Assembly (NCBI RefSeq): GCF_027922305.1
Contig: NZ_BSFK01000009.1
Span: 1-64,000 of the forward strand
DNA: 64,000 bases
Direction: 5' to 3'
Origin: Methylopila jiangsuensis
GTDB lineage: Bacteria; Pseudomonadota; Alphaproteobacteria; Rhizobiales; Methylopilaceae
This document shows positions 49,051 through 63,122 of this stretch, in pieces. The notes below the pieces were generated by a model. It made no database searches, was not told the DNA's origin, and saw only the letters and a list, made by a program, of their open reading frames with translations. A program made the position numbers and the translations under genes. The first letter of the stretch is position 1. Every line of letters begins with the position of its first letter.

Positions 49051-49067
49051 CTTAAGGCCTGCTTAAG
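49051..49067. promoter_or_regulatory. CTTAAG-N5-CTTAAG direct repeat upstream of tsdBA
   Basis: CTTAAG at 49051-49056 and 49062-49067, 11 bases apart in phase. It lies 49-65 bases before tsdB. OmpR/PhoB-type regulators bind such one-turn direct repeats. Three similar sites occur in the window. Confidence 0.6.
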
Positions 49068-49115
49068 GTGGGTGCGCAGTAAAACTTGGAACGCTGAATC
49101 TATCGGGAGCTTCTC

Positions 49116-49781
49116 ATGCTTGTTCCCAGGTTTTGGACCATCGTCGCCGTGGGGGCGGCCCTATCGCTTCCCGAGCCGGCCGCCGCCGCCGACCTAGGAT
49201 CGGCGATCGTCGACCAAGGCAACGGCAAGGGGGCCATGCCCTGCAAGGCGTGTCACGGACCCGCCGGCGGAGGAAACCCGGCGGCTGGCTTCCCTCGACT
49301 CGCTGGTCTTTCCCGGGACTACGTCGTCCGTCAGCTCGACGCCTACGCCGATGGCAGCCGAACTCAGCCAACGATGACGGCCATCGCGAAGGCTCTGTCA
49401 CTCGAAGAACGGATGGCCGTCGCCACGTACTTCGAGGCTGCGCGAGCGCCCGCGGCAGTCGATGCCAAGCCCGGTGACGAAGCGGCGATCGCGCGCGGCG
49501 CCGACCTTGCGAGAGATGGAGATTGGTCGGAAGGGCTGCCAGCGTGCGGGCAGTGTCATGGACCTGATGGTCGAGGCGTCGCGCCGGATTTTCCTCCTCT
49601 CGCGGGTCAGTCCGAGAAATACCTCAAGGGACAGCTCGACGCCTGGAGGCAGGGCAAACGCAGCAGCGATCCGCTGCATCTCATGACCGCGATCGCAAGC
49701 AAGCTTGACGACGCGGATGTCGCGGCCGCCGCGGCCTATTACGCGAGCCTGCCGCCCAGCGCAGAAGGCGATCAGCGGTGA
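49116..49781 (+). CDS. tsdB: Di-heme cytochrome c4-like protein, TsdB-like
   Basis: 221 residues: signal peptide and two c4-type heme domains, CKACH (Cys43, Cys46, His47) and CGQCH (Cys144, Cys147, His148). Next to tsdA with a four-base overlap, it is the natural electron acceptor for thiosulfate dehydrogenase, as in organisms with tsdBA. Confidence 0.82.
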   Translation: MLVPRFWTIVAVGAALSLPEPAAAADLGSAIVDQGNGKGAMPCKACHGPAGGGNPAAGFPRLAGLSRDYVVRQLDAYADGSRTQPTMTAIAKALSLEERMAVATYFEAARAPAAVDAKPGDEAAIARGADLARDGDWSEGLPACGQCHGPDGRGVAPDFPPLAGQSEKYLKGQLDAWRQGKRSSDPLHLMTAIASKLDDADVAAAAAYYASLPPSAEGDQR

Positions 49782-50707
49782 GAGCGTCGAGAACAGCGCA
49801 TTCCGTCATGCTTGCGGCAGCAGCCTCGTTCGGCGTTGCTGGCATAGTCGCCGTGACCGCGGCCTGGGCCGATCAATCGGGCAAGCAAGCGGCGTTCATC
49901 CCGCCGACTGAAACCGAGATGCCGAAGGACGGCTTCGGCGACATGGTCGCTCTCGGGCGAGACATCTTCACCGACACCTCCAAACACGCCGGCGCTTTCG
50001 TGGGCAACGACCTCAAGTGCTCGAACTGCCATCTCGACAAGGGGCGGCTGGCCAACTCGGCCCCGCTATGGGCGGCCTACGTCGCCTATCCCGCCTTTCG
50101 GAAAAAGAACAACCACGTCAATACGTTCGAGGAGCGGCTGCAGGGCTGCTTTCAGTACAGCATGAACGGCAAGGCACCGCCGCTTGGCGACAAGACGCTC
50201 GTCGCCCTCGAGGCGTACGCCTACTGGCTGGCAAAAGGCGCCCCGACAGGCGCCGACATGGACGGACAAGGGTATCCAGACCTCAAGAAGCCGGAAGCGT
50301 TCGACGTCGCCAAGGGCGGCGAAATCTACTCCCAGAAATGTGCGCTCTGCCACGGCGCCGATGGAGCCGGCCGGAAGGCGGCAGACGGATCGGTCGCCTT
50401 TCCGCCGCTCTGGGGACCGCGCTCTTACAACTGGGGCGCGGGCATGAGTTCGATCAAGAACGCGGCCGGCTTCATCAAGGCGAACATGCCTCTCGGGCTC
50501 GGCGGCACGCTAAGCGACGAAGAGGCATGGAACGTCGCGGCCTATGTGAACACCCACGAGCGACCCCAGGACCCACGATTCAACGGTTCGGTGGCCGAGA
50601 CGCGAAAGGCGCATCATGAAGGACCGTTCGAGTTCTACGGCACGGTGATCGACGGCAAGACGCTTGGGGAGAATTCGCCGGCCTTCGGGACCGTCCCGAA
50701 ACAATAG
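49778..50707 (+). CDS. tsdA: Thiosulfate dehydrogenase TsdA
   Basis: 309 residues: signal peptide; two heme domains, CSNCH (Cys81, Cys84, His85) with the unusual axial Cys124 in 'GCFQYSMNG', and CALCH (Cys188, Cys191, His192). The His/Cys ligation of heme 1 is the hallmark of TsdA, which joins two thiosulfates to tetrathionate (reversibly in some). Starts inside the tsdB stop. Confidence 0.85.
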   Translation: MRASRTAHSVMLAAAASFGVAGIVAVTAAWADQSGKQAAFIPPTETEMPKDGFGDMVALGRDIFTDTSKHAGAFVGNDLKCSNCHLDKGRLANSAPLWAAYVAYPAFRKKNNHVNTFEERLQGCFQYSMNGKAPPLGDKTLVALEAYAYWLAKGAPTGADMDGQGYPDLKKPEAFDVAKGGEIYSQKCALCHGADGAGRKAADGSVAFPPLWGPRSYNWGAGMSSIKNAAGFIKANMPLGLGGTLSDEEAWNVAAYVNTHERPQDPRFNGSVAETRKAHHEGPFEFYGTVIDGKTLGENSPAFGTVPKQ

Positions 50708-50718
50708 TAGCGGCGCGA

Positions 50719-51510
50719 TCAGGCCGTGCTCAGAGCGGAGACTCCCCGCACGATCATGTAGCCAGCGACGCAGAAGATCATGACGGCGAACGCAACGTTG
50801 AGCGCGCCCTTCGCCTTCGCCAGATGGCAGGCGATCTTCGTCCCGATGAGGCCGCCCAGCACCCCGCCGACGACGAACACGAACGCTAGAGGCCAGTCGA
50901 CGAAACCTGAAGCCGCGTAGTTCAGCGCCGTCGTCAGACCGAACGCGCCGACGGCCACGAGCGACGATCCGATCGCCATGAGCGTCGGCATGCCCGTTGA
51001 TGCCACAAGGCCCGGGACGATGAGGAAGCCGCCTCCGATCCCGAAAAATCCGGAAAACACGCCCGTGGCGGCTCCGACGCCGAGGATTTTCGGAGCCTTC
51101 TCGATCGTGCATTCAGAGTTGGAGTCGCCGACATGGCCGCGGCTCCGAAGCATCATGACGCCGATGCCGACCATGAGCACGGCGAACAGCAACAGCAGCT
51201 TTTGGCCGTCGATGGCCTTTCCGACGGTTGATCCGAGTAGCGCGCCGGCGACGCCCGCCACGCTGAACATCGCCGCGCAACGCCATTTCACGTTGCCGCA
51301 GCGCGCATGGGCGAACAGGCTCGAGCCTGCATTGGCCGCGACCGCGAGAGCGCTTGTCCCGATGGCCATGTGCGCGCTTGGAACGCCGACCAGGTAGACC
51401 ATCAGCGGCACGGCGAGGATCGATCCGCCGCCGCCGAAGAGGCCAAGCGCAAGCCCGACCAAACCGCCCGAGGCGCCTCCGAGTGCGTACTGGATCGGCT
51501 CGAGCGTCAT
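50719..51510 (-). CDS. TauE/SafE (TSUP) sulfite/organosulfonate exporter
   Basis: 263 residues, eight helices, with the duplicated TSUP motifs 'GLVGLALGLFGGGGSILAVPLMVYLVG' and 'GVFSGFFGIGGGFLIVPGL'. Last gene of the minus-strand sulfide operon, 10 bases after the SQR fusion. Probably exports sulfite made by the persulfide dioxygenase. Confidence 0.85.
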   Translation of the reverse strand: MTLEPIQYALGGASGGLVGLALGLFGGGGSILAVPLMVYLVGVPSAHMAIGTSALAVAANAGSSLFAHARCGNVKWRCAAMFSVAGVAGALLGSTVGKAIDGQKLLLLFAVLMVGIGVMMLRSRGHVGDSNSECTIEKAPKILGVGAATGVFSGFFGIGGGFLIVPGLVASTGMPTLMAIGSSLVAVGAFGLTTALNYAASGFVDWPLAFVFVVGGVLGGLIGTKIACHLAKAKGALNVAFAVMIFCVAGYMIVRGVSALSTA

Positions 51511-51520
51511 GACAAGCCGC

Positions 51521-53209
51521 CTACTCGGCCGCCTCGAGCGCTTTGTGCTCGGGTTTGCACATCGGCTCGCGACCCTTCAGCATTGCGTCCCAGTAGACCT
51601 TCGGAAGGACCTTCTCCTTGAGCATCCAAGCGGCCTTGGACGGCTTGAGATCGTCGATCAACCATTTCGGGAAGCTCGGCATGCGCTTCCCGCCATAGCC
51701 GAACTCGGCGAGGATCACCTTGCCGCGCTCGACGGTCAGCGGGCATGAGCCATAGCCATTGTAGACGGCGGTCTCGGACATGCTGATCGCGCCCATATCC
51801 CGCAGCAGGTTCTCGGCAACGACCGGAGCTTGCTTACGAGCCGCGGCCGCGGTCTTGGCGTTTGAAGCGCCCATCGCGTCACCGAGGCTGTAGACGTCGG
51901 GATAGCGCGTGTGCCGCAGCGTGGCCGAATCGACGTCGACCCATCCCGCTTCGTTGGCGAGCGGCGACGAACGGATGAAGTCCGGAGCGCTCTGCGGCGG
52001 CGTCACGTGGATCATGTCAAATGATCGCTCGAAGATCTGGGGCTCGCCGTCCTTCGGCGTCGCCTTGAACCATGCGCGCTTGGCCGGGCCGTCGATCCTG
52101 ACGAGGTTGTGCCCGAAGCTGAGGTCGATGCCGTAGGCCTTCACGTACTCCATCAACGGGGGCACGTAATCCGCGACGCCGAAGAGCACGGGGCCGGCGT
52201 TCAGGAACTCGACCTTGGTGTTTCCGAGCGTGCCGACGTTCCGCCACTGGTCGCACGACAGGTACATCGCCTTCTGGGGCGCGCCCGCGCATTTGATCGG
52301 CATCGGGGGCTGCGTGAAGAGCGCGGTCCCGCCGCGCAAGCCCTTCACGAGTTCCCAGGTGTAGGGAGCGAGATCATAGCGGTAGTTGGATGTCACGCCG
52401 TTCTTGCCGAGCGCCTCCTCAAGCCCCTCGACGCCGGCCCAATTCAGCTTGAGGCCGGGCGCAACGACCAGCTTGCCGTAGCCGATCGACCTGCCGCTCT
52501 CGAGCGTCACGGTCTTCGCATCGGGCTCGAAGGTCGCGACCTTCTCTTTGATCCACTTCAGGCCGTTCGGAATGAGCGAGGCCATGTCCCGCTTGGTTTC
52601 TGCCGCGGAGAACACGCCTCGGCCGACCAGCGTCCATCCAGGCTGGTAATAGTGGGCGTCGGCTGGATCGATAATCGCGATATCGAGGCCCGACTTTCGG
52701 GCCAGCATGCTGGCCGCCGCCGCGATGCCCCCGGCGCCCGCTCCGACGATGACGATGTCATGCCTGCCGCCCGAGCCGCCGGTCGCGGTCGCGCCGTTGG
52801 TCGATGAGGCGGCGAGAACGGACGAGACGTCGTAGCCCGCGTCCTTCGCAAGGCGACGAATATCGTCCGCTGGGCGCCGTCCCGCTTCGGACAGCGCCCA
52901 GAGCATCGCGGTTCGCGTGCCAGACTTGCAGTAACCGAGCGTGGGCTTCGGCAGCGCTTCGAGGTCCCGGCGGAACGTCTCCGCTTCCGCAGGGCCGAGC
53001 CCCGCGACCGTAACGGGCACGTAGGCGACCGACAGGCCGGCGGCGGCCGCCGCAGTCTTGATCTCGTCGTGGCTGGGTTGGTCGGGGCCTTCGCCGTCCG
53101 GACGGTTGATCATGATCGAGCGAAAGCCGGCTGAACGAGCCTCGGCGACGTCCGCAACGGAAAGCTGGGGGCTGACCGAAAGATCGTCCGTGATCTTCTT
53201 GGCTTGCAT
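51521..53209 (-). CDS. Phosphatase-like (DUF442) - SQR-like oxidoreductase fusion
   Basis: 562 residues. Residues 1-130 form a DUF442/Blh-type phosphatase-like domain with the P-loop Y-C-K-S-G-T-R (about 93). From about 150 an FAD-binding domain (DIVIVGAGAGGIAAAASML) with SQR-like features: 'HYYQPGWTLVG', 'KCAGAPQKAMYLSCD' cysteine pair, and C-terminal 'KWLIDDLKPSKAAWMLKEK' membrane anchor. Oxidises sulfide with quinone. The fusion is known in bacterial sulfide clusters. Start at 53209 (ATG; a second ATG lies three bases before). Confidence 0.85.
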   Translation of the reverse strand: MQAKKITDDLSVSPQLSVADVAEARSAGFRSIMINRPDGEGPDQPSHDEIKTAAAAAGLSVAYVPVTVAGLGPAEAETFRRDLEALPKPTLGYCKSGTRTAMLWALSEAGRRPADDIRRLAKDAGYDVSSVLAASSTNGATATGGSGGRHDIVIVGAGAGGIAAAASMLARKSGLDIAIIDPADAHYYQPGWTLVGRGVFSAAETKRDMASLIPNGLKWIKEKVATFEPDAKTVTLESGRSIGYGKLVVAPGLKLNWAGVEGLEEALGKNGVTSNYRYDLAPYTWELVKGLRGGTALFTQPPMPIKCAGAPQKAMYLSCDQWRNVGTLGNTKVEFLNAGPVLFGVADYVPPLMEYVKAYGIDLSFGHNLVRIDGPAKRAWFKATPKDGEPQIFERSFDMIHVTPPQSAPDFIRSSPLANEAGWVDVDSATLRHTRYPDVYSLGDAMGASNAKTAAAARKQAPVVAENLLRDMGAISMSETAVYNGYGSCPLTVERGKVILAEFGYGGKRMPSFPKWLIDDLKPSKAAWMLKEKVLPKVYWDAMLKGREPMCKPEHKALEAAE

Positions 53210-53303
53210 CATCTCTCTCCCTTTCAGTTCGCCAGCTTCCGCCGGTCTCCTCAACGCGTCCTTCAGGCAGCAACTGAAGTCAGTAAGCCAGGCATTGGAT
53301 CTC

Positions 53304-53753
53304 TCAGTGGTGCGCCATGCGCCCCCTCGAAAACGGCCTGAATGAGTTGCGGTCGTGCATCGCCATCCCGGCCAGCATCGCGGCCAGAAAGACGAGCGTT
53401 TTCGGAACGCCGAGCGAGATCGACGCGACGGCGGGCCCAGGGCACAACCCAGCCATCCCCCAGCCAACGCCGAACATCGCTGCTCCCGCTATGAGCTTGC
53501 CGTCGATCGGTCGTGTGGCAGGAAGGTGAAAATCGTCATCGAAGGCTGGTCGGTTCATCCGGCGTGCGATCTGAACTCCGACCGAAGCGACGGCTACCGC
53601 ACCGCCAAGCACGAAGGCGAGGCTCGGATCCCAGTCTCCGAAGATGTCGAGGAAGCCACGCACGCGCTGCGGGTCCAGCATGCCCGACAGCGCAAGACCT
53701 AACCCGAACGTCACGCCGCTGAGACCCGCCGCAATCATCCGAGCGCCGGTCAC
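53304..53753 (-). CDS. YeeE/YedE half-transporter (DUF6691-type)
   Basis: 149 residues, four helices: 'GLSGVTFGLGLALSGMLDP', 'GVGWGMAGLCPGPAVA' with the family Cys. Half the size of a full YeeE; pairs with the next upstream gene, whose stop it overlaps (GTGA). GTG 53753 chosen; ATG 53738 is another option. Confidence 0.82.
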   Translation of the reverse strand: MTGARMIAAGLSGVTFGLGLALSGMLDPQRVRGFLDIFGDWDPSLAFVLGGAVAVASVGVQIARRMNRPAFDDDFHLPATRPIDGKLIAGAAMFGVGWGMAGLCPGPAVASISLGVPKTLVFLAAMLAGMAMHDRNSFRPFSRGRMAHH

Positions 53754-54166
53754 GAGGCGCCCGCCAGCCGCATGACCGCGACCGTCGCGATCGCGCAGCC
53801 GAGAAAGGCCGCGACGGCCACGAGCGACCGCGGCGAGAGCCGCGCGAGCCCGACGACGCCGTGCCCGCTGGTGCAGCCCGACCCGAGCCTCGTCCCGTAG
53901 CCGACCAGCAGGCCGGCGACGATAAGCGTCGGCACGCCCGCGTCGACGCGGATTTCGGGAAAGCGGCCGAACGTCGCCAGATAGAGCAGCGGTCCGGCGG
54001 CGAGTCCGAGAATGAACGCGGCGTTCTCGAGACGCGGCGAGCCTGCGCGCCACAGGCCGCTCAGGATGCCGCTCACCCCGGCCACCCTGCCGTTGAGCAG
54101 TAGCAGGAGAGCTGCCGCCAACCCTATCAGCGCGCCGCCGAGGAGGGACGGAACATAAGCCGTCAC
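53750..54166 (-). CDS. YeeE/YedE half-transporter (sulfur transport domain)
   Basis: 138 residues, four helices, conserved Cys motif 'GTRLGSGCTSGHGVVGLARLS'. With the 149-residue partner it makes a split YeeE-type importer of thiosulfate or a related sulfur species. GTG start overlaps the ArsR stop. Confidence 0.82.
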   Translation of the reverse strand: MTAYVPSLLGGALIGLAAALLLLLNGRVAGVSGILSGLWRAGSPRLENAAFILGLAAGPLLYLATFGRFPEIRVDAGVPTLIVAGLLVGYGTRLGSGCTSGHGVVGLARLSPRSLVAVAAFLGCAIATVAVMRLAGAS

Positions 54167-54570
54167 GGATGGCTCTCCTGATCCACAGCCGGCATCACCC
54201 GCGCAAATTGCGCGGCCCCGATCGATCGGTCCGGTCTCGACGGAGCGCCAACCGACAGGCCGCCGGGCGCTACGCTCGTCGCGGTTCCGAACAGCAAATT
54301 CAGGACGCCGGTGACCTCGGCGGCCCGCCTCGGGTGCAGACAGTAGAAGACCTGCTTGGCCTCCCTCCGAGCCTCGACGAGCCCGGCGTCCCGGAGGCCG
54401 GCCAGTTGCTGCGAGAGCGTCGGCTGCCGGATGCCGAGCTCGGTCTCGAGATCGCCGACAGAGGCCCCATCCCGGGCGAGGCGGGCAAGGATCAGTAGAC
54501 GGTTGGGATTGGCGAGCGCCTTGAGGAACTCGGCCGATTGGTCGGCGCGGTTGCGGCTCGGGGTCACCAT
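54163..54570 (-). CDS. ArsR-family regulator of the sulfide operon, one-cysteine variant
   Basis: 136 residues, winged helix ('IRQPTLSQQLAGLRDAGLVEARREAKQVFYCLH'). Close to BigR/SqrR in shape, but it has a single cysteine (Cys77, in the wing) and lacks the two conserved sensing cysteines. It sits in the middle of the operon it should control and overlaps its neighbours on both sides. Confidence 0.82.
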   Translation of the reverse strand: MVTPSRNRADQSAEFLKALANPNRLLILARLARDGASVGDLETELGIRQPTLSQQLAGLRDAGLVEARREAKQVFYCLHPRRAAEVTGVLNLLFGTATSVAPGGLSVGAPSRPDRSIGAAQFARVMPAVDQESHP

Positions 54571-55457
54571 GCCGATCCCTCCAGCGCGTCAAGCGGGAAT
54601 TTGAGGTAGCGACGACCGTCGCTTTCGGGCTCAGGCAGCCGGCCGCCGCGGATGTTCACCTGCAGGGCGTGGAGGATGAGCTTCGGCATCGGAAGTCCGC
54701 GGTCACGCTCCTCGCGGATCCTGACGAACTCGGCCTGCGTCTTGCCGGCGACATGCGAGTTCTTCGTCTTCTGCTCGCCGACCGTGCTCTCCCAGAGCGG
54801 CTCACGGCCGTTCGGCTGATAGTCGTGTCCGGTGAAGACGCGGGTCTCGTCGGGAAGCGACAGGATTCCCTGTAGCGAATTCCACATGCGCGCCGCGCTC
54901 CCGCCCGGGAAGTCGCATCGGGCGGTGCCGCTGTCCGGCATGAAGAAAGTGTCGTGCACGAAGGCCGCGTCGCCGATCAGATAGGTGATCGACGCAAGCG
55001 TATGACCCGGCGAGAACAGGACCTCGGATTCGAGCTCGCCAACCTTGAACCGCTCGCCTTCCGCGAACAGCTTGTCCCACTGGGATCCGTCAGCCCGCAG
55101 CTCCGGCCAATTGTAGATCTTCTTCCAGAGATTCTGCACGTCGACGACGCGTTCTCCGATCGCCGTCGGCGCGCCGGTCTCGGCCTTGAGATACTGCGCC
55201 GAAGAGAAGTGGTCCGCATGCGGATGGGTGTCGAGAATCCACTCGACCCGATACCCGCGGTCGCGGATGTGCTCGAGAATAGCGTCGGCGCTTCGCGTCG
55301 CCGTCGCGCCCGACTTCTCGTCGAAGTCGAGCACAGGATCGACGATCGCGCACGCGCCGGTCTCGGGACATGCAGCGACGTACTGGATGCTGCTGGACCG
55401 GGGCTCGAAGAAGCCTTTGACCAGCGGCTTCAGGTCCGCTTCCGTGACCAAGGTCAT
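54564..55457 (-). CDS. MBL-fold persulfide dioxygenase-like hydrolase (ETHE1/Blh type)
   Basis: 297 residues: metallo-beta-lactamase fold with T-H-P-H-A-D-H-F iron-binding motif, 'FSPGHTLAS', 'HDTFFMPDSGTARCDFPGG' and 'VFTGHDYQPNGRE'. The D-F-P-G-G region matches persulfide dioxygenases, which turn glutathione persulfide into sulfite. One-base overlap with the peroxiredoxin gene upstream. Confidence 0.88.
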   Translation of the reverse strand: MTLVTEADLKPLVKGFFEPRSSSIQYVAACPETGACAIVDPVLDFDEKSGATATRSADAILEHIRDRGYRVEWILDTHPHADHFSSAQYLKAETGAPTAIGERVVDVQNLWKKIYNWPELRADGSQWDKLFAEGERFKVGELESEVLFSPGHTLASITYLIGDAAFVHDTFFMPDSGTARCDFPGGSAARMWNSLQGILSLPDETRVFTGHDYQPNGREPLWESTVGEQKTKNSHVAGKTQAEFVRIREERDRGLPMPKLILHALQVNIRGGRLPEPESDGRRYLKFPLDALEGSAW

Positions 55458-56119
55458 CAGATGCTCCTAAGGCGGTAGTACCAGTCCGGGGCCGTCTCGC
55501 TCGGCGAGAACGTCGCGATCGCGGCGGCGTCGATCGGGCTCGCGTCGATAACCGGGTCGCCCGGCCTCCAGCCTTCGGGCGTAGAGACGACATCTGCGTC
55601 AGCGGTCTGGAGCGCCTCGACGAGCCTCAGGATCTCCTCGACGGACCGCCCGGTGCTCATCGGGTACCAGGACATCGCGCGCACGACGCCAGTCGGGTCG
55701 ATCACGAAGGTGCCCCGAACTGTCGAGCTGTCGGGCGCGTCGTCCTGCAGCATTCCGTAAGCCGCAGCGATCGCCATGGAAGGGTCCTCGGCGATCGGAA
55801 AAGGCACCTCGACGCCGAACCGCTCCGCGATCGAACGCTTCCAGGCGAGATGCGAGAACAGGCTGTCGACCGACAAGCCGAGGAGCTCGCAATCGAGCGC
55901 TTGAAATCGGTCGAACGCCTTGGAGAACGACACGAACTCGCTCGTGCAGACGGGAGTGAAGTCGGCGGGATGCGAAAAGAACACGAGCCAGCGGCCGCGA
56001 TAGTCGGCAAGCGCACGCTCACCCATCGTGGTTCGCGCCTCGAACAGCGGAGCGACCGATCCAATCACCGGCGGGCGCTTCGCGACGCGATCTCTTCCTA
56101 CAGCCGTCATGTCCGTCAC
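55457..56119 (-). CDS. 1-Cys peroxiredoxin (Prx6 type)
   Basis: 220 residues with H-P-A-D-F-T-P-V-C-T-S-E (Cys58) and the long C-terminal domain of Prx6 proteins. Reduces peroxides, and perhaps handles persulfide-related oxidants here. First gene of the sulfide/persulfide operon. ATGs at 56119 and 56110 are both possible starts. Confidence 0.85.
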   Translation of the reverse strand: MTDMTAVGRDRVAKRPPVIGSVAPLFEARTTMGERALADYRGRWLVFFSHPADFTPVCTSEFVSFSKAFDRFQALDCELLGLSVDSLFSHLAWKRSIAERFGVEVPFPIAEDPSMAIAAAYGMLQDDAPDSSTVRGTFVIDPTGVVRAMSWYPMSTGRSVEEILRLVEALQTADADVVSTPEGWRPGDPVIDASPIDAAAIATFSPSETAPDWYYRLRSI

Positions 56120-56129
56120 CGCGGTCCTC

Positions 56130-56200
56130 CCACCTTGCGTCGAAGGATCATTTTATAATTCGGTAGTTCTGTAATTCAAGTTTTTGAAATTGACGTTTGT
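56130..56200 (-). promoter_or_regulatory. AT-rich promoter/operator region of the sulfide operon
   Basis: A low-GC island between the peroxiredoxin and L,D-transpeptidase genes. It contains TTCAAGTTTTTGAA (56178-56191), a small inverted repeat, and ATAATTC / GTAATTC repeats. It is the likely place for the ArsR protein of this operon to bind. Confidence 0.4.
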
Positions 56201-56243
56201 GGGAGGTATTCGGCGGTCGAGGCCTCCGGCTCGCCAGGCGACT

Positions 56244-56903
56244 TCAGAGAACGACCACCTTCGAGCCTCGCGGGACGCGGCCGTAGAGATCGATGACGTC
56301 CTGGTTCAGCATCCGAATGCAGCCGGATGAGACCGCCTTGCCGATACTCTGCGGCTCGGTGGTGCCGTGGATGCGGTAAAGCGTGTCTTTGCCGTCCTTG
56401 AACAGGTACATGGCCCGTGCGCCGAGAGGGTTCTTCTCGCCGCCATCCATACCCCCCTTCCAGGCGCCGTATCGGTCGGGATCCCTTCCGATCATGTCGT
56501 CGGTCGGCGTCCAGCGTGGCCACTCACGCTTCATCTGGATCGAGGCCGACCCGGCGAACTCGAGGCCCGCCTTGCCCACCCCCACGCCGTAGCGCAGCGC
56601 TTTCCCGTTCTCCTGCACGAGGTAAAGGAAGCGAGCGTGGGGATCGACCACTATGGTCCCCGGCGGCTGGTCGGTCGGGAAGTCGACCTCCTGCCTCAGG
56701 ATCTTGGGATCAATCTTTTTGAGGTTCACGGGTTGGACCGCGAATGGTTCGTCGGGCTTCGCGCCGTATCGGACGGCGTCGCTCGGGTCGACAGCGGGTA
56801 TCGCCGCGGTCGTTTCGGTCGGAGGCGGCATGCTCGCGCAGGCGCCGAGGAGCATTGGCAGAGCGATGACGATCGCTCTGCGGGAAAACGCGGACACGGT
56901 CAT
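56244..56903 (-). CDS. L,D-transpeptidase lipoprotein (YkuD domain)
   Basis: 219 residues: lipobox LLGAC, then a YkuD catalytic domain with H-G-T-T-E and the nucleophile S-S-G-C-I-R-M. Cross-links peptidoglycan or attaches proteins to it. Not obviously related to the sulfur genes; it follows dsbA-like gene by 21 bases in the same direction. Confidence 0.88.
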   Translation of the reverse strand: MTVSAFSRRAIVIALPMLLGACASMPPPTETTAAIPAVDPSDAVRYGAKPDEPFAVQPVNLKKIDPKILRQEVDFPTDQPPGTIVVDPHARFLYLVQENGKALRYGVGVGKAGLEFAGSASIQMKREWPRWTPTDDMIGRDPDRYGAWKGGMDGGEKNPLGARAMYLFKDGKDTLYRIHGTTEPQSIGKAVSSGCIRMLNQDVIDLYGRVPRGSKVVVL

Positions 56904-56924
56904 GGATGCAAGGATCTCCGCCGT

Positions 56925-57566
56925 TCAGGATCGGCCAGCGCGCTTGCGCGCTTCAGCGACCGCTTCCTTGAACTGCGCAAAATCGGGCGCCGCCGCGACG
57001 AGCAGCGGCCCGACGAGATAAACTGGCGTGCCCTGGAGCTGCAGGCCTTTGGCCTGGGCGTCATTGCGCTTTAGCAACGCCGAAATCTCTGCGTCGTTCG
57101 CTTTGGCGTCAGCCTCGAGGCGAACCATGTCGACGCCTGATGCCTTGATCGCCGCCAGCATCTGATCCTCCGGAATCCTTCGACCCGGGATCGACATCAG
57201 CGCCTTGTGAACTTCGTCGTACTTGCCCTGGTACTTCGCCGCGAGGGCGAGCTTGGCACCGTAGACCGAAGCTTCCGTCAGGATCGGCCAGTCCTTGTAG
57301 ACGACCTTGATCTTGCCATCCGCCCTGACGAGCTTTTCGAGCTCAGGCGCGGATTTTTTGCAGTAGGGGCAATTGTAGTCGAGATAGGCCACGATCGTGA
57401 TGTCGCCCTTTGGATTCCCGGCCTTTGGAGCCGCAGGATCGTTGACGATCATTTCCCGGCTGGCGTTCGCGTCCTGGGCGAACGCGATCGACGGAAGCGC
57501 CGCGGGCAAGGCGAGAACGAGCGCGAAGGCGAGGCGCCTGAAGACAAGCGTGCGGTGCATGGACAT
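56925..57566 (-). CDS. Periplasmic DsbA/DsbG-like thiol oxidoreductase
   Basis: 213 residues: signal peptide and a thioredoxin fold with C-P-Y-C (Cys66/Cys69) and cis-Pro in 'GTPVYLVG'. Member of the DsbA family near SoxW/BdbD-like. Reads away from the response regulator; the CTTAAG repeat lies in between. Confidence 0.85.
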   Translation of the reverse strand: MSMHRTLVFRRLAFALVLALPAALPSIAFAQDANASREMIVNDPAAPKAGNPKGDITIVAYLDYNCPYCKKSAPELEKLVRADGKIKVVYKDWPILTEASVYGAKLALAAKYQGKYDEVHKALMSIPGRRIPEDQMLAAIKASGVDMVRLEADAKANDAEISALLKRNDAQAKGLQLQGTPVYLVGPLLVAAAPDFAQFKEAVAEARKRAGRS

Positions 57567-57611
57567 CGATCTCCCGAGGTTCGCTGATCGTCGGCCAGCA
57601 TCGGGCGCCGG

Positions 57612-57628
57612 CTTAAGCCAGCCTTAAG
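57612..57628. promoter_or_regulatory. CTTAAG-N5-CTTAAG repeat between dsbA-like and the response regulator gene
   Basis: CTTAAG at 57612-57617 and 57623-57628. It is 46 bases before dsbA-like (minus) and 50 bases before the response regulator gene (plus). The location next to a regulator gene fits autoregulation. Confidence 0.6.
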
Positions 57629-57677
57629 CACCGGGCGGCATCGACGGCGGGCACGTCGGAAAGGGAAGCTGATCGCG

Positions 57678-58340
57678 ATGAGGGTGCTGGTCGTCGAGGA
57701 CGATCCCATGTTGCTCGACGGCCTGAAGGTCGGGCTCGGTCTTGCGGGCGCGACTTGCGACGTCGTCTCAACCTGCGGCGATGCGGAGGCCGCGCTTGCG
57801 ACCAGTGTTTTCGACGCCGTGGTGCTGGATCGAATGCTGCCGGACGGGTCCGGCCTCGACGTCCTGAAGCGTCTGCGAGAGCGCGGCGATCGTACGCCGA
57901 TCCTGCTTCTCACCGCGCTCGACGAGACATCGGACCGGATTGACGGGCTCGACGCCGGCGCGGACGATTATCTTGGAAAACCGTTCGATCTCGATGAACT
58001 CGCGGCGCGTATCCGCGCGATGGTTCGTCGTGGCGCTGGGCGGGCAACCCCAGGCCTTGCGTGGGGCGAGTTCACGCTCGACCCTGCGACGATGACTGCG
58101 GCGCAAGGCGGCAAAGCCGTTGCGCTGTCACGGCGGGAGTTCGCGGTCCTGTCGGCGTTGATGGAGCGACGCGGCGCCATCGCTTCGCGCTCCGAGATCG
58201 AGGACCGCCTCTACGGATGGCAGGAGGAGATCGAGAGCAACGCCGTCGAGGTTCACGTCCATCACCTGCGGGCAAAGCTTGGGCGCGAGGCGATCGAGAC
58301 CGTCCGCGGCCTCGGCTACCGCATGGGAGGACGGTCTTGA
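57678..58340 (+). CDS. OmpR/QseB-family response regulator
   Basis: 220 residues: receiver domain (D8, D9, phosphoacceptor D51 in 'VVLDRMLPDG', K101 in 'GKPFD') and a winged-helix domain ('LSRREFAVLSALMERRG', 'VHVHHLRAKLG'). TctD/QseB-like. The stop overlaps the kinase start. Confidence 0.9.
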   Translation: MRVLVVEDDPMLLDGLKVGLGLAGATCDVVSTCGDAEAALATSVFDAVVLDRMLPDGSGLDVLKRLRERGDRTPILLLTALDETSDRIDGLDAGADDYLGKPFDLDELAARIRAMVRRGAGRATPGLAWGEFTLDPATMTAAQGGKAVALSRREFAVLSALMERRGAIASRSEIEDRLYGWQEEIESNAVEVHVHHLRAKLGREAIETVRGLGYRMGGRS

Positions 58341-59698
58341 GGTCGTTGCGGGTTCGCCTGTTCGCGACCCTGATTGTGGCGACCGGCGCTCTCTGGTTCA
58401 TCGCGGCCGCCTGGATCTATGTCGGCGCGCGCCAGGAGGTCGAGCACGTGCTCGATACGCGCCTCCAGGAAGCGGCCCGCATGGTCGCTTCGCTGGTCGC
58501 GAGCGGCGACATGCCGGCGAGGCCCAAAGCTGGGGAGCCGGCGACGTCTATTCCCGGTCTTGGCGGCTACGAACGGCAGCTCTCCTGCCAAATCTGGTCT
58601 TTCGATGATCGCCTGGTAGCGCGTTCGAGCGGTGCGCCGGACGAGAAGCTGAGCGATGGAGGCACGGGCTTTTCCGAGCGCGTAGTCAACGGTGAGCCCT
58701 GGCGCGTCTATGCGGTCGAGGATGAGGCCAAGGGCATCCGCGTCCTCGTCGGTGACCGGCTCGGTCTTCGCGAAAAGCTTGTCGCCGACCTGATCAAGGG
58801 TCTGCTTTGGCCGGCCGCTCTGATCCTGCCGCTACTCGGCTTCCTGATCTGGGCGAGCGTCGGCCAGGGCCTCAGGCCTCTTCGCCTCATCGCGCGCGAA
58901 TTGGGAGGGCGAGACGCCGAAGACATGAGCCCGGTCGACGCTGGAGCTATGCCTTCCGAGATCAAGCCGCTGACGACGGCCATCAACGGGCTGTTCGATA
59001 AGGTCGAGCGAGCCCGACGGCATGAGCGCGAGGTGACGGCGTTCGCCGCGCACGAACTCCGCACGCCGCTCGCCGGCCTCAAGACGCAAGCGCAGATCGC
59101 CGCAACAGCCAAGGAACCTGGCGTAAGGGATCGCGCGCTGGGCCAGGTTTTGACGGCCGTCGACCGCGCCAGCCGGCTCGTCACCCAGCTTCTTGCTCTC
59201 GCCCGGCTCGACGCCGAAGCCCCCGCCTCGACCCCCGAGACGGCGCCCCTCGGCTCCGTCATCGAGGAAGCGCTGGAACTTGCACGCGCCACGGGTCCGG
59301 CGCGCGTCACGCTCGCGCCGGACGTTCAGCGAATGTGCGTTCAAGCGCCTCGTCAGCCGCTGCTGTTGTTGCTGCGAAACCTCTTCGAAAACGCTTTCGA
59401 GCATTCGCCGCCGGACGGCGTCGTGACCTGCCGTGTTGCAGGGTGCGCGATCGAAATCCTCGACGAGGGGCCCGGCGCGCCCGAGGCCGAGCTCCCTCGG
59501 CTCACGCAGCGCTTCTTTCGAGGTTCGACCAAGATGGCGACCGGCGAAGGCGCAGGGCTCGGTCTCGCGATCGCGTCCGCGGCGGCCGAGCAATGCGGGG
59601 CCACACTTTCGTTCGAAAACCGGCAGGACCGAACCGGGCTTATTGCCCGCATCACGTTTGGGCAGAGCTTAGTCGCCCACAACGCGGCGGCGGCCTGA
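58337..59698 (+). CDS. Sensor histidine kinase (QseC/TctE-like)
   Basis: 453 residues: helix at 10-30, periplasmic domain of about 125 residues containing Cys84, a second helix at 157-175, HAMP-like linker, H-box with His239 ('AFAAHELRTPLAGLK'), then ATPase motifs 'LRNLFENAFEHSP' and 'GEGAGLGLAIA'. TTG start overlapping the regulator stop (TTGA). The sensed signal is unknown, but the neighbours suggest a sulfur or thiol cue. Confidence 0.88.
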   Translation: MRSLRVRLFATLIVATGALWFIAAAWIYVGARQEVEHVLDTRLQEAARMVASLVASGDMPARPKAGEPATSIPGLGGYERQLSCQIWSFDDRLVARSSGAPDEKLSDGGTGFSERVVNGEPWRVYAVEDEAKGIRVLVGDRLGLREKLVADLIKGLLWPAALILPLLGFLIWASVGQGLRPLRLIARELGGRDAEDMSPVDAGAMPSEIKPLTTAINGLFDKVERARRHEREVTAFAAHELRTPLAGLKTQAQIAATAKEPGVRDRALGQVLTAVDRASRLVTQLLALARLDAEAPASTPETAPLGSVIEEALELARATGPARVTLAPDVQRMCVQAPRQPLLLLLRNLFENAFEHSPPDGVVTCRVAGCAIEILDEGPGAPEAELPRLTQRFFRGSTKMATGEGAGLGLAIASAAAEQCGATLSFENRQDRTGLIARITFGQSLVAHNAAAA

Positions 59699-59746
59699 CT
59701 CAATCAATTCAGATACGCAGAAACGCCGCGGCTGCTCGGACAGCAG

Positions 59747-59789
59747 GATCACGCGTCCGTGACGGAATGATCGAGGCTGATCCGGCGTC
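59747..59789 (+). promoter_or_regulatory. ECF-type promoter of the AcfC-like gene, with extended upstream element
   Basis: -35 GGAATG at 59764-59769, 16-base spacer, -10 CGTC at 59786-59789. The preceding 16 bases (59747-59762) are identical to those at 20100-20115. Confidence 0.6.
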
Positions 59790-59890
59790 CCTTCTTAGGA
59801 AGCGTAATCCTAACGCCGCCACAGACACGGGCGCGTGACGACCCGCCGGCCGTTTATGGTCGGCGGCGTCGCCCCAATCAGGAGACATCG

Positions 59891-60652
59891 ATGAAGATCT
59901 CGTCCGCGATCGCCGGCCTCGCCGTATCGCTTTTCGCCTTCAGCGCCTCGGCGGCGGAGATCAAGGCTTACGGTCCGGGAGGCCCAATGCCCGCCATGAA
60001 GGAAGCCGCCGCCAAATTCGAACAGGCTACCGGAAACAAGGTCGAGGTCACTGCCGGGCCGACGCCGAAATGGATCGAGGGCGCTCGCGCCGACGCCGAT
60101 CTGATCTTCAGCGGTTCGGAAACGATGATGACGGACTTCGTCGCCGCGATGAACGGCCAAATCAAGAGCGAGGACGTCGAGCCTCTTTATCTCCGGGCGT
60201 CGGCGATACTCGTGAGGCCCGGTAACCCGAAGAAGATCGAATCCTTCGCCGACCTCCTGAAATCCGACATGAAGGTCATGGTCGTCCAGGGCGCAGGCCA
60301 GACCGGCATGTGGGAGGATATCGCGGGAAGGAAGGGCGATATCGAGACCGTCAAGCGGTTGAGGAAGAACATCGGTTTATTCGCTCCCAATAGCGCCGCC
60401 GCGAAGGAAACTTGGGGCAAGGATGAGTCCTTCGACGCCTGGATCATCTGGACGATTTGGCAAAAGGCCAATCCGAAGTTGGCGGACGTCGTGGAGATCG
60501 AACCTGACCTTCGAGTCTATCGCGACACGGGCGTCGTGCCGACCGAACGCGGCAAGGCCAAGCCCGAGGTCGCGTCATTCATCGAATTCCTCAAGGGTGA
60601 TGAGGGACGAGAGATCTTCAAGAAGTGGGGCTGGATCACCGACCGGCCTTAA
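59891..60652 (+). CDS. Secreted AcfC-like substrate-binding protein
   Basis: 253 residues: signal peptide and a type 2 periplasmic-binding fold similar to accessory colonisation factor AcfC and ModA ('YGPGGPMPAMKEAAAKFEQATG', 'AGPTPKWIEGARADADLIFSGSE'). No permease or ATPase gene is adjacent, so the import partner is missing or the protein is a sensor or scavenger. AGGAGA precedes the ATG. Confidence 0.82.
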   Translation: MKISSAIAGLAVSLFAFSASAAEIKAYGPGGPMPAMKEAAAKFEQATGNKVEVTAGPTPKWIEGARADADLIFSGSETMMTDFVAAMNGQIKSEDVEPLYLRASAILVRPGNPKKIESFADLLKSDMKVMVVQGAGQTGMWEDIAGRKGDIETVKRLRKNIGLFAPNSAAAKETWGKDESFDAWIIWTIWQKANPKLADVVEIEPDLRVYRDTGVVPTERGKAKPEVASFIEFLKGDEGREIFKKWGWITDRP

Positions 60653-60680
60653 CTGGTCCGGCGGCCCCGACCGCGGCAAC

Positions 60681-60709
60681 TCACACCTTAAGCGGCGCTT
60701 AAGGTGTGA
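60681..60709. promoter_or_regulatory. CTTAAG-N5-CTTAAG repeat inside a larger palindrome, upstream of dsrE-like gene
   Basis: CTTAAG at 60687-60692 and 60698-60703. The whole site is a palindrome of 13-base arms (TCACACCTTAAGC) around GGC. It lies 43 bases before the DsrE-like gene and 28 bases after the AcfC-like gene, so it may also act as a terminator hairpin. Confidence 0.6.
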
Positions 60710-60751
60710 GGCCCAGGCGAAACCCTCAACTCATAAACGAGGGAGAGGACG

Positions 60752-61210
60752 ATGCTCGTGAAACTGATCGCCGCCGCGACTTTGGCGGGGTTGGCGATGT
60801 TCGGCGTGGCCAAGGCCGGCGAAACGGCCGAGCCCGGCTACTACACCGACCAGAAGGTCGTCTATCACAACGACGGCGGCCACGATGGGCCCGCCTACTT
60901 CAAGCGGATGCTCGGAAGCATCCGCAACCACGTCGAAGCGCTCGGGCGAGACCACGTCCAGATCCGGGTGGTCGATCACGGCGATGGCGTCACGCTGTTC
61001 AAGCTGGCGCAGGAGGACAAGGTGCTCGCCGAACGCATCGACGCGCTGAAGTCGGACGGCGTTCGGTTCCTGATCTGCGCGAACACGCTGAACGAACGCG
61101 AGATCAACTGGAAGACGCTCTACGGCGTTAGCGAACAGGACATCGTCCCGAGCGGCGTGGCGGAACTCGCCCGCCTCCAGCAGATGGGCTTCGTCTACGT
61201 CCACCTCTGA
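60752..61210 (+). CDS. Secreted DsrE-family protein
   Basis: 152 residues: signal peptide and DsrE-like domain with a Cys in 'RFLICANTLNER', the place of the sulfur-transfer Cys. Paralog-like to the sox-cluster DsrE protein. Preceded by AGGGAG and by the CTTAAG repeat. Confidence 0.78.
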   Translation: MLVKLIAAATLAGLAMFGVAKAGETAEPGYYTDQKVVYHNDGGHDGPAYFKRMLGSIRNHVEALGRDHVQIRVVDHGDGVTLFKLAQEDKVLAERIDALKSDGVRFLICANTLNEREINWKTLYGVSEQDIVPSGVAELARLQQMGFVYVHL

Positions 61211-61233
61211 CGCTGGCGACGACCCATGTTGCG

Positions 61234-63066
61234 TCAGGCGTCGTCGGCCTGAGTCAGCCGGCGCTGGAAGTCAGCGGCCTCGATCGGTCCAATCGATCGC
61301 AACGCCGCAATCTCGGCGCCTGACTTGTCGAAGAACAGCGTCGTCGGCGGTCCGACGACGCCCAACCCCTTCATTAAGAACGCGGCCTCGGCGTCGTTGC
61401 CCGTTACGTCGACTTTCACGACCGAGAACTCGCGGAGCTTCGCCTGGAGCGCCTCGCTGTTCGCCATGGTCTTTTCGTTCTCGGCGCAGGTGGAGCACCA
61501 GCCCGCCGTGAAGATGAGGAGGCTTGGCCGGCCCATAATTTTCGAGCTGGCGAGCGCCGCTTCGAGCTGACCCTTGCTCGTGACCGTCGTGTCGGATCCT
61601 CGCGGTTGCGTCGTCGATGGCGAAGCTGCGAGGTGGGCCAGAGGGCGCAGCGCGTCTTGAGCGCCGGACGCAGCGCCCAGAACGAGCGCAGCGCCATAGA
61701 CAACCGCGGCGACACCCGCGGCCTTCGACAGGCGTTCGCCGGCGCCGCTTCTTCTACCGATTGGGTCGAATGCGCCCAGGAACACGCCGAGGCCGATCGC
61801 GAACAGAGCCCAGAGCGCGACCGTCACCTGCGGAGAGGCGACCCTGCCCACAAGCATGACTGCGACCGCCAGGAACACGACGCCGAAACCGTGCTTCACG
61901 GCTTCGAGCCAGGGACCGGACTTCGGCATGAGTTTCGCGCCGAACAGGCCGACCGCAATAAGCGGTGCGCCCGTGCCTAGTCCCAGTGCGAACAGAGCGG
62001 AGGAGCCGCGAACGACGTCTCCGGTTTGCGCGACGTAGACCAGCGCGGCCGCGAGTGGCGGCGTCACGCAGGGGCCGACGATGAGCGCGGACACGAAACC
62101 AAGAAGCGCCGAGCCGGAAACTGAGCCTCGCGCCCGCGCGGCCGTTCCCGCGAAGCGCGATGAGAGCGCGGTCGGCGCCTGAAAATGGAAGACATCAAAC
62201 ATGGACAGCGCCAGCGCCACGAAGATGGCGCTTCCCACGATCAATGCGGCAGGCGTCTCCAGTGCTGTCTGAAGGTTCTGTCCGGACCACGCCGCCGCGA
62301 CGCCGAGCATGCCGTAGGCCGTAGCCATGGCGAGAACGTATGAAACCGAGAGCGCGAGTCCTCGTCCCGGCGAGAGCGCTTCACCGGATCGCGCGAGGAT
62401 GCCTACGAGGATCGGGATCATCGGGTACACGCAAGGAGTCAGCGCGAGCAGCAGGCCGAGCCCGAAGAAGGCCGCGAGCACGACGGTGAACTCACCTGTG
62501 AGATTGGGTGCCAGGGCGGCCGGGAACGAGACATGAGATTCCGCGGATGCGCCGGGAACGGCTTCGTCCGAGACGTGATCCTGCAAATCGATTCCGTTCG
62601 GCTCCGGCGTCGGCGACACGACGGTCTTTGCGTCGATTTGGCCTATGCGCTGAAGGTCGATCTGCTTGGTGACCGGCGGGTAGCAGATCCCGCGCTCGGC
62701 GCAGCCCTGATAGGTCACCTCGAGCGGCATCGAACGATCGAGCCCGCCCGCATCGACCGTGCCGGAGACATTGGCGTCATAGATTTCCACGGGGCCGAAG
62801 GTCGGGTCGTCCTTGGTCTTGCCCGCGGGCGTGGCGACCTGAAGAGACCGGCCGCCGGATTTCGCGGCGATCTTGTCCCGGTAGAGATAGACGCCCGGCG
62901 CCAATGTCCATGAGAGCTTTATGGAGCCCTCTTCGCGGGTGGCGGCCAACGAAATCGCCTGCTGAGAGGTTGGAAACGGGTCCGCCGCGCGAGCAACTCC
63001 GTAAACCGCGAAGAGGGAGAAAAGAACGAGAACAGCCTTCGCGCCCGCTGGAATCCACATGCGCAT
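61234..63066 (-). CDS. dsbD: Thiol:disulfide interchange protein DsbD
   Basis: 610 residues: signal peptide, N-terminal immunoglobulin-like domain with Cys pair 'QGCAERGICYPP', an eight-helix membrane domain with cysteines in 'LTPCVYPMIP' and 'VGPCVTPPLA', and a C-terminal thioredoxin domain W-C-S-T-C. Delivers electrons to periplasmic thiol proteins. Start at ATG 63066 with a strong GGAGG; ATG 63090 would include that site. Confidence 0.9.
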   Translation of the reverse strand: MRMWIPAGAKAVLVLFSLFAVYGVARAADPFPTSQQAISLAATREEGSIKLSWTLAPGVYLYRDKIAAKSGGRSLQVATPAGKTKDDPTFGPVEIYDANVSGTVDAGGLDRSMPLEVTYQGCAERGICYPPVTKQIDLQRIGQIDAKTVVSPTPEPNGIDLQDHVSDEAVPGASAESHVSFPAALAPNLTGEFTVVLAAFFGLGLLLALTPCVYPMIPILVGILARSGEALSPGRGLALSVSYVLAMATAYGMLGVAAAWSGQNLQTALETPAALIVGSAIFVALALSMFDVFHFQAPTALSSRFAGTAARARGSVSGSALLGFVSALIVGPCVTPPLAAALVYVAQTGDVVRGSSALFALGLGTGAPLIAVGLFGAKLMPKSGPWLEAVKHGFGVVFLAVAVMLVGRVASPQVTVALWALFAIGLGVFLGAFDPIGRRSGAGERLSKAAGVAAVVYGAALVLGAASGAQDALRPLAHLAASPSTTQPRGSDTTVTSKGQLEAALASSKIMGRPSLLIFTAGWCSTCAENEKTMANSEALQAKLREFSVVKVDVTGNDAEAAFLMKGLGVVGPPTTLFFDKSGAEIAALRSIGPIEAADFQRRLTQADDA

Positions 63067-63105
63067 CGATAACCTCCGAGTGGAGGTCATGGGTCCGATG
63101 CTCAG

Positions 63106-63122
63106 CTTATCCCAACCTTAAG
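63106..63122. promoter_or_regulatory. CTTAAG-type repeat upstream of dsbD
   Basis: CTTATC at 63106-63111 and CTTAAG at 63117-63122 with the same five-base spacer; the first half-site deviates in two bases. It lies 39-56 bases before the dsbD start. Confidence 0.5.

Follow-up and report, generated by a model that had tools for sequence, protein, structure and literature searches.

The first 64,000 bases of contig NZ_BSFK01000009.1 of Methylopila jiangsuensis (hereafter the window, meaning this whole stretch) contain a two-component system, encoded by a QseB/PmrA-type response regulator gene and a QseC-like histidine kinase gene, which diverges from the gene of a DsbA-like thioredoxin-fold protein. 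Three exact copies of the pattern CTTAAG-N5-CTTAAG and one degenerate copy lie upstream of this divergent pair and of the tsdBA, dsrE-like and dsbD genes (Table 1), and we propose that the regulator binds all four sites. In the comparisons of loci and site contexts, genes were called by homology and a G+C codon-position score, without a trained gene finder, and some of the listed open reading frames (ORFs) are antisense. The cytochrome gene following the first site is presumably tsdB, a name based on gene order. The L,D-transpeptidase gene probably forms one operon with the dsbA-like gene, and the DsrE-like protein is a predicted exported sulfur-transfer protein. The DsbA-like protein has a Thr-Pro close to its C-terminus, presumed to be the cis-Pro, and its matches among solved structures are, in order, 3gyk (an unnamed 27-kDa protein), 7rgv (Caulobacter ScsC, 8e-23) and 4gxz (ScsC). 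The source genome encodes another DsbA-like protein, about 61% identical, at G000:C16:909182-909766, and this copy is without a site.

Table 1. Predicted operators and associated genes in the window.
Feature	Position	Strand	Basis or context
Predicted operator, exact	49051..49067		Upstream of tsdB-tsdA; motif scan
TsdB-like cytochrome c, first gene after site	49116..49781	+	Pfam Cytochrom_C
TsdA-like thiosulfate dehydrogenase (di-haem cytochrome c)	49778..50707	+	Pfam SoxA-TsdA_cyt-c, 34.2 bits (cutoff 27)
L,D-transpeptidase (YkuD), catalytic-type Cys (SSGCIRM), lipobox	56244..56903	-	Pfam YkuD, 79.4 bits
ScsC/DsbA-like thioredoxin-fold protein, CPYC	56925..57566	-	Pfam DSBA; solved-structure matches
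Predicted operator, exact	57612..57628		Between divergent dsbA-like gene and two-component operon
QseB/PmrA-type response regulator	57678..58340	+	Pfam Response_reg and Trans_reg_C
QseC-like histidine kinase, single Cys (residue 84) between membrane helices	58337..59698	+	Pfam 2CSK_N, HisKA, HATPase_c
Predicted operator, exact	60687..60703		Upstream of second DsrE-like gene
DsrE-like protein	60752..61210	+	Pfam DsrE
DsbD-type transmembrane thiol reductase	61234..63090	-	NCBIfam DsbD, 485 bits, over cutoff
Predicted operator, degenerate (2 mismatches)	63106..63122		Upstream of dsbD

These four copies had been listed in a first-pass annotation of the sequence as the only ones present, and the scan confirmed this: no further match with at most two mismatches was found in the window. 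Across the whole genome (3,715,153 bases scanned) the exact copies also number three, all inside the window and spanning 11.7 kb, while the reversed control pattern has no exact copy there. At two mismatches or fewer, 19 places carry the pattern against 30 for the reversed control; since weak copies are rarer than the control, the signal resides in exactness and clustering, and weak copies alone are no proof. Such copies were rejected as further targets, and the best of them outside the window (G000:C13:112330, one mismatch) adjoins genes without a reference-gene match. Among 274 genomes of the order that lack an ortholog of the regulator, 14 exact copies occur in 13 genomes, about 0.05 per genome; three exact sites within 11.7 kb are far above this density.

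The sites had been described as lying 35-65 bases before start codons. This holds for tsdB, the dsbA-like gene, the regulator and dsrE, with gaps of 45-49 bases (48 for tsdB), and fails for dsbD, where only 15 bases separate the copy from the ORF start at 63090. This dsbD start may be too far upstream, because Met9 and Met11 just precede the hydrophobic signal segment; with the true start at one or the other the gap would become 39 or 45 bases. In the comparison among genus members only the dsbD rows were used, because genes near a locus end gave wrap-around errors (at SQR in L034 and TauE in L042, probably also at SoxD and SoxR). Four other members have a copy of the site 31-55 bases ahead of dsbD that deviates at one or two positions, reading CTTAAGCCAGCCATAAG, CTTAAGGCTGGCATAAG, TTTAAGATCGCCATAAG and TTTAAGATCGCCGTAAG; the gene-distal half is mostly conserved and the proximal half variable. 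Given these counterparts, the degenerate copy is probably real. The dsrE site lies within a perfect inverted repeat of 31 bases (60680-60710, with 14-base arms and a 3-base loop), which might either enlarge the operator or form a hairpin in RNA.

The association between site and regulator was followed in 18 genomes of the family, in 80 loci from named genomes and in 297 genomes of the order; in the last sample an ortholog was a regulator match with E <=1e-80, and ortholog, motif and control genomes were counted by hand from listings. Within the family, exact sites occur in seven genomes, exactly those with a regulator homolog 65-100% identical, and in all seven a site lies upstream of the regulator; in the other 11 the best homolog reaches at most 56% and there is no exact site. 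Among the named-genome loci the regulator is at least 58% identical in 29, and 26 of these have an exact site at most 200 bases upstream, the remaining three being sphingomonads with a two-mismatch site. The other 51 loci have no exact site at that place, two Burkholderiaceae having a one-mismatch and one Shewanella a two-mismatch version. By our own count the genomes of the 29 loci hold 70 exact sites in 26 genomes, against seven in seven for the reversed control.

The scan of genome and relatives recommended in the first-pass annotation also covered the order sample. Exact sites are present in 36 of 297 genomes: in 23 of the 23 with an ortholog and in 13 of the 274 others (Fisher p=1.9e-25). 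The reversed control occurs in 57 of the 297, and in only two of the 23 (own count). In 21 of the 23 ortholog genomes, 33-78 positions separate the end of the site from the start of the regulator gene. In G142 it stands about 880 bases from the regulator, between the transpeptidase and dsbD genes, and in G167 the exact site is about 220 kb away on the same contig, an imperfect one (at most two mismatches) being found upstream of the regulator. A tree of 114 regulators contains a clade of 60 (support 97/93), and 59 of these have a site with at most two mismatches within 260 bases upstream, G142 being the lone exception. The 60 loci come from at most 53 genomes, as G022, G023, G028, G039 and G040 each contribute several; L138, L146 and L155 were removed as duplicates, and L031 and G006 are the same contig. 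One locus labelled Solidesulfovibrio (L033) has a regulator 72% identical that falls inside a clade of alphaproteobacterial regulators, perhaps as a mis-binned contig or through gene transfer.

The regulator is of the OmpR/PhoB type, with a receiver and a Trans_reg_C winged helix (Pfam), and is 88% identical to its counterpart in Hansschlegelia beijingensis. Its best curated-model matches place it in the QseB/PmrA branch, with which it shares N, EVH, H, LR and K in the helix that we take to be the recognition helix, and its closest solved-structure match is PmrA/BasR. All the scores are below equivalog level: 221 bits against NCBIfam QseB (cutoff 345) and 220.3 against PmrA (cutoff 330) for the regulator, 231.6 against QseC (cutoff 475) and 142.5 against PmrB (cutoff 314) for the kinase. 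Judged by these models, the system is neither QseBC proper nor PmrAB proper. QseB and QseC are the best NCBIfam matches of the two proteins and the sensor domain matches 2kse; the differences from QseBC, besides these scores, are in the targets and in Cys84 of the kinase, which is not conserved in the aligned stretch of QseC.

The PmrA box, as described in excerpts of PMC3973317, consists of half-sites CTTAAG and XTTAAT, five bases apart and bound head-to-tail. The sites found here, which also stand in promoters, have the layout of the box used by PmrA/BasR of Salmonella and Klebsiella, two CTTAAG-type half-sites with a five-base gap, with these differences: the second half ends in G instead of T, both half-sites are full palindromes, and the spacer is a mostly symmetric SCWGS. 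The targets also differ, being thiol redox genes here and polymyxin-resistance genes in the case of PmrA. As CTTAAG is palindromic, each site is a direct and an inverted repeat at once, so that the sequence does not decide between the two readings, and the head-to-tail arrangement was adopted from the PmrA precedent. The use of the sites by the QseB-like regulator encoded at 57678, which had been proposed at the outset, is strongly supported by co-occurrence, position and phylogeny together with the PmrA-box match, and the motif very probably serves this neighbouring regulator as its operator.

Which genes the sites serve was determined from the ortholog genomes. Of their 104 distinct exact sites, 84 have a core gene facing them at a distance of up to 300 bases; for the part of the order sample that lies outside the family, the figure is 22 of 25 by our own count. 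The promoter set, which comprises only sites facing a recognised core gene, counts 134 members. The first gene is the regulator in 56, a DsbD-like gene in 31, a DsbA-like gene in 19 and an L,D-transpeptidase gene in 18; rarer are a fusion of a TlpA-type thioredoxin with an LGT-like membrane domain (3), TsdB (2) and CcoN (2), and TsdA, DsrE and DsbG occur once each. At 51 of 80 sites a core gene is found on both sides. Within the family, 19 DsbA-like copies served as a control, a better one than the paralog loci described next: an exact site is present at the five that directly adjoin regulator, kinase and transpeptidase genes, and at each of the other 14 the best match has three mismatches or more. 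Among the latter, L213 belongs to the regulator locus of G001, where the site faces the transpeptidase gene.

A comparison of 8 kb around the regulator in 60 ortholog and 54 paralog loci gave the same picture, although the paralogs are an imperfect control because they were drawn largely from other taxa. The counts for ortholog and paralog loci are 47 and 0 for DsbA, 47 and 0 for L,D-transpeptidase, 37 and 0 for DsbD and 18 and 0 for TlpA-LGT; among sulfur-related and peroxide-related families they are 20 and 1 for ETHE1-type hydrolases, 16 and 0 for TauE, 13 and 0 for YedE2, 10 and 0 for peroxiredoxin and 8 and 0 for SQR-type proteins. Thiol or transpeptidase genes are present at 54 of the 60 ortholog loci and any sulfur gene at 25; one of the six loci without the former at this cut, L055, has a YkuD gene nonetheless. 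The core of the predicted regulon is the ScsC/DsbA-like protein, DsbD, the L,D-transpeptidase and the TlpA-like protein; tsdBA, dsrE and the sulfide-detoxification genes are accessory members. The first-pass annotation had proposed a sulfur/thiol regulon, of which the thiol part stands as the conserved core and the sulfur part holds only in some lineages, as discussed below. These computations support the operator itself, its association with the regulator, and the targets that recur beside it.

In the gene-facing promoters an A is found at position +12 past the site in 77 of 134 cases (background 0.15), and we tentatively take this base for the -11 A of a -10 element lying at the spacing known from PhoB-like regulators. 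A class II activator would be expected to keep such a spacing constant in most promoters. By first gene, the A is present in 36 of 56 promoters of the response regulator, 24 of 31 of DsbD, 8 of 10 of other genes and 9 of 37 of DsbA and L,D-transpeptidase; the counts are not fully independent, since promoters share sites.

The sensor domain of the kinase is 2CSK_N (Pfam), related to the solved QseC domain 2kse. Kinases were taken from the regulator's strand (58 of 60 loci), and the opposite-strand cases L180 and L181 were added separately. Cys84, within RQLSCQIWS, is present in 60 of 60 ortholog kinases and in none of 48 paralogs, all of which have another residue at this position, mostly Phe or Tyr. 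With helix bounds that are estimates, none of 58 orthologs has a further cysteine between its two membrane helices, and 47 of 48 paralogs have no cysteine there at all. Among the first 170 residues, 31 are at least 95% conserved, and Cys84 is the only fixed thiol.

From these elements we consider it likely that the system is a sensor of thiol oxidation or persulfides that switches on thiol reduction in the periplasm together with L,D-transpeptidation, and that in this organism also covers tetrathionate formation and sulfur transfer. The kinase (58337) would respond when its one periplasmic cysteine is oxidised or modified by sulfur, and in this way report thiol damage. Once phosphorylated, the regulator (57678) would occupy CTTAAG-N5-CTTAAG as a dimer in head-to-tail arrangement, immediately upstream of the -10 element, a position from which activation of transcription is proposed. 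The response would supply a periplasmic thiol-reducing chain leading from DsbD to the ScsC/DsbA-like protein, joined in other species by TlpA-like and DsbG-like proteins, as well as the L,D-transpeptidase. The catalytic cysteine of this enzyme is probably one of the clients of the chain and may be kept reduced by DsbD and the ScsC-like protein. In this organism tsdBA and the dsrE-like gene would have been joined to the response. The reactivity of tetrathionate and persulfides towards thiols would account for the recruitment of tsdBA, dsrE and the detoxification genes nearby. Binding, activation, the cysteine as sensor, transpeptidase repair and reactive sulfur as the natural signal are what we infer; the L,D-transpeptidase, the kinase cysteine and the palindromic nature of CTTAAG were absent from the earlier annotation.

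A more specific formulation is tentative and, in our judgement, somewhat short of an even chance: a two-component system spread through Alphaproteobacteria may read the redox or persulfide state of the kinase cysteine and keep the L,D-transpeptidase cysteine usable, with an operator whose symmetry allows it to act on both divergent promoters. If true, it would connect sulfur chemistry, periplasmic thiol reduction and cell-wall cross-linking. An alphaproteobacterial two-component family gains together predictions of its binding site and core regulon and a candidate for its sensor residue; these suggest a dedicated periplasmic thiol-damage response that couples disulfide reductases with L,D-transpeptidases, and show how some lineages may wire tetrathionate formation and sulfur transfer into it. 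The PmrA box and both protein families are already known; no account that joins this regulator clade to the core regulon and the sensor cysteine was found in the open literature, which is weak evidence since subscription literature lay mostly outside the search.

Several observations weigh against the proposal of a thiol-damage response under this operator. The three sphingomonad orthologs have two-mismatch sites only, with no exact site genome-wide, and the 14 exact sites counted above are in genomes without an ortholog; one of them, in G316 (L184:4039), where the best regulator homolog is 43% identical, stands before an L,D-transpeptidase gene. Moreover, 20 of the 104 exact sites face no core gene, ten of them in one Bradyrhizobium genome that carries the repeated CTTAAGTGGAACTTAAG. 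The A at +12 is missing from the tsdB promoter, and its frequency at DsbA and L,D-transpeptidase promoters is not significant (p=0.05). In the sister genome G017 no site precedes tsdBA, the best match there having four mismatches. Finally, the sensor role of Cys84 is suggested by its conservation, to which a structural role could also give rise.

The same operator and regulator might respond instead to copper or another thiophilic metal, or to a chlorine or disulfide oxidant, as has been proposed for Scs (suppressor of copper sensitivity), with the sulfur genes as bystanders. In Salmonella the scs genes are regulated by CpxRA. A lone periplasmic cysteine would also react with metals or oxidants, and the DsbA-like protein matches ScsC-type proteins; the pairing of a DsbD-like reductase with a DsbA/DsbC-like periplasmic partner appears common to both systems by sequence, and differs in its link here to an L,D-transpeptidase and a QseBC-like system and in having 3gyk as best solved match. 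ScsB maintains ScsC reduced in several species, and both proteins are tied to copper resistance, according to excerpts of PMC8900818. Against such a signal, none of ten flanking genes, at loci mostly without sulfur genes, is a copper gene, no genome-wide search for copper genes having been made; they comprise ferric reductase-like, FTR1 iron permease, peroxidase and unrelated families, and one gene without a match. The enrichment described above is of sulfide-detoxification genes instead, and we regard a metal or oxidant signal as rather unlikely.

The window itself suggests a second alternative, a dedicated sulfur-oxidation regulon in which thiosulfate or tetrathionate is sensed and sulfur oxidation is switched on, because two of the sites stand at tsdBA and dsrE, beside genes read as a sox cluster. 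Sites near such genes recur elsewhere, including some distant genera, with operon links suggested by strand and spacing. The gene behind the site is a more distantly related TsdA-like one in G008 and TsdB in Methylobacterium brachiatum; in Paracoccus indicus it is CcoN, and TsdB and TsdA lie beyond it, while in Methylorubrum zatmanii an unassigned ORF comes first and DsrE second. In L152 (G040) a site precedes a row of SoxB-like, TsdA-like and DsrE genes, and in G100 a site between a TsdA-like gene and CcoN faces CcoN. The enrichment of ETHE1-type, TauE and YedE genes favours the same view. SoxB, however, is found in 7 of 23 ortholog genomes and in 91 of 274 others (p=1); as it is not associated with the regulator, the system is not tied to sulfur oxidation, and a sox-linked core function was rejected. 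TsdA (E <=1e-40) is present in only two of the 18 family genomes, one of them, G017, without a site, and the regulator loci carry thiol or transpeptidase genes far more often than sulfur genes. We read the sulfur genes, from their distribution, as probable repeated recruitment to a thiol core, and we regard a dedicated sulfur-oxidation regulon as improbable.

Two-component sensing of sulfur oxyanions is also known from the thiosulfate and tetrathionate sensors ThsSR and TtrSR, set beside this system by description and not by sequence; in excerpts of PMC5408782, ThsSR activates a thiosulfate reductase operon via an 18-bp element with 6-bp inverted repeats. In the alphaproteobacteria, sulfur oxidation is controlled by the ArsR-type repressors SoxR and sHdrR (excerpts of PMC11582611 and PMC12423496), and ArsR-type genes are also present in the window, whereas the system described here is a membrane kinase with a response regulator. 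It is very improbable that one of these ArsR-type proteins (54163, assigned by Pfam, or 38151, assigned by reading only) binds the symmetric site as an inverted repeat: the site follows the response regulator across genomes, SoxR-like and second ArsR genes lie within 8 kb at only 9 and 4 of 60 loci, and the 17-base site has PmrA-box geometry (excerpts of PMC3973317). Chance or repeat-element copies, to which the excess of the control over weak copies and the repeated CTTAAGTGGAACTTAAG in Bradyrhizobium would point, are a negligible explanation, as positions and targets recur across orders and the co-occurrence already contradicts it.

Some minor observations concern further sites. In Bradyrhizobium elkanii (G023; L036, L156, L157, L158) several CTTAAGTGGAACTTAAG copies have similar flanks and are probably a repeat element rather than operators. 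A second exact site of a genus member (L162:5037, G017:C56:185336) adjoins a glycosyltransferase-like ORF and no thiol or sulfur gene. In two Burkholderiaceae (L059 and L064) CTGAAG-N5-CTTAAG, with one mismatch, lies 105-135 bases before a regulator 50-52% identical. The exact motif is also found about 440-475 bases before a different QseB-like regulator (L058:9529-9545, and at similar places in L065 and L067); the box may be ancestral for QseB-type regulators. In L058 the motif precedes a gene for a small secreted protein, which we take to resemble YgiW, whose gene precedes qseBC in E. coli.

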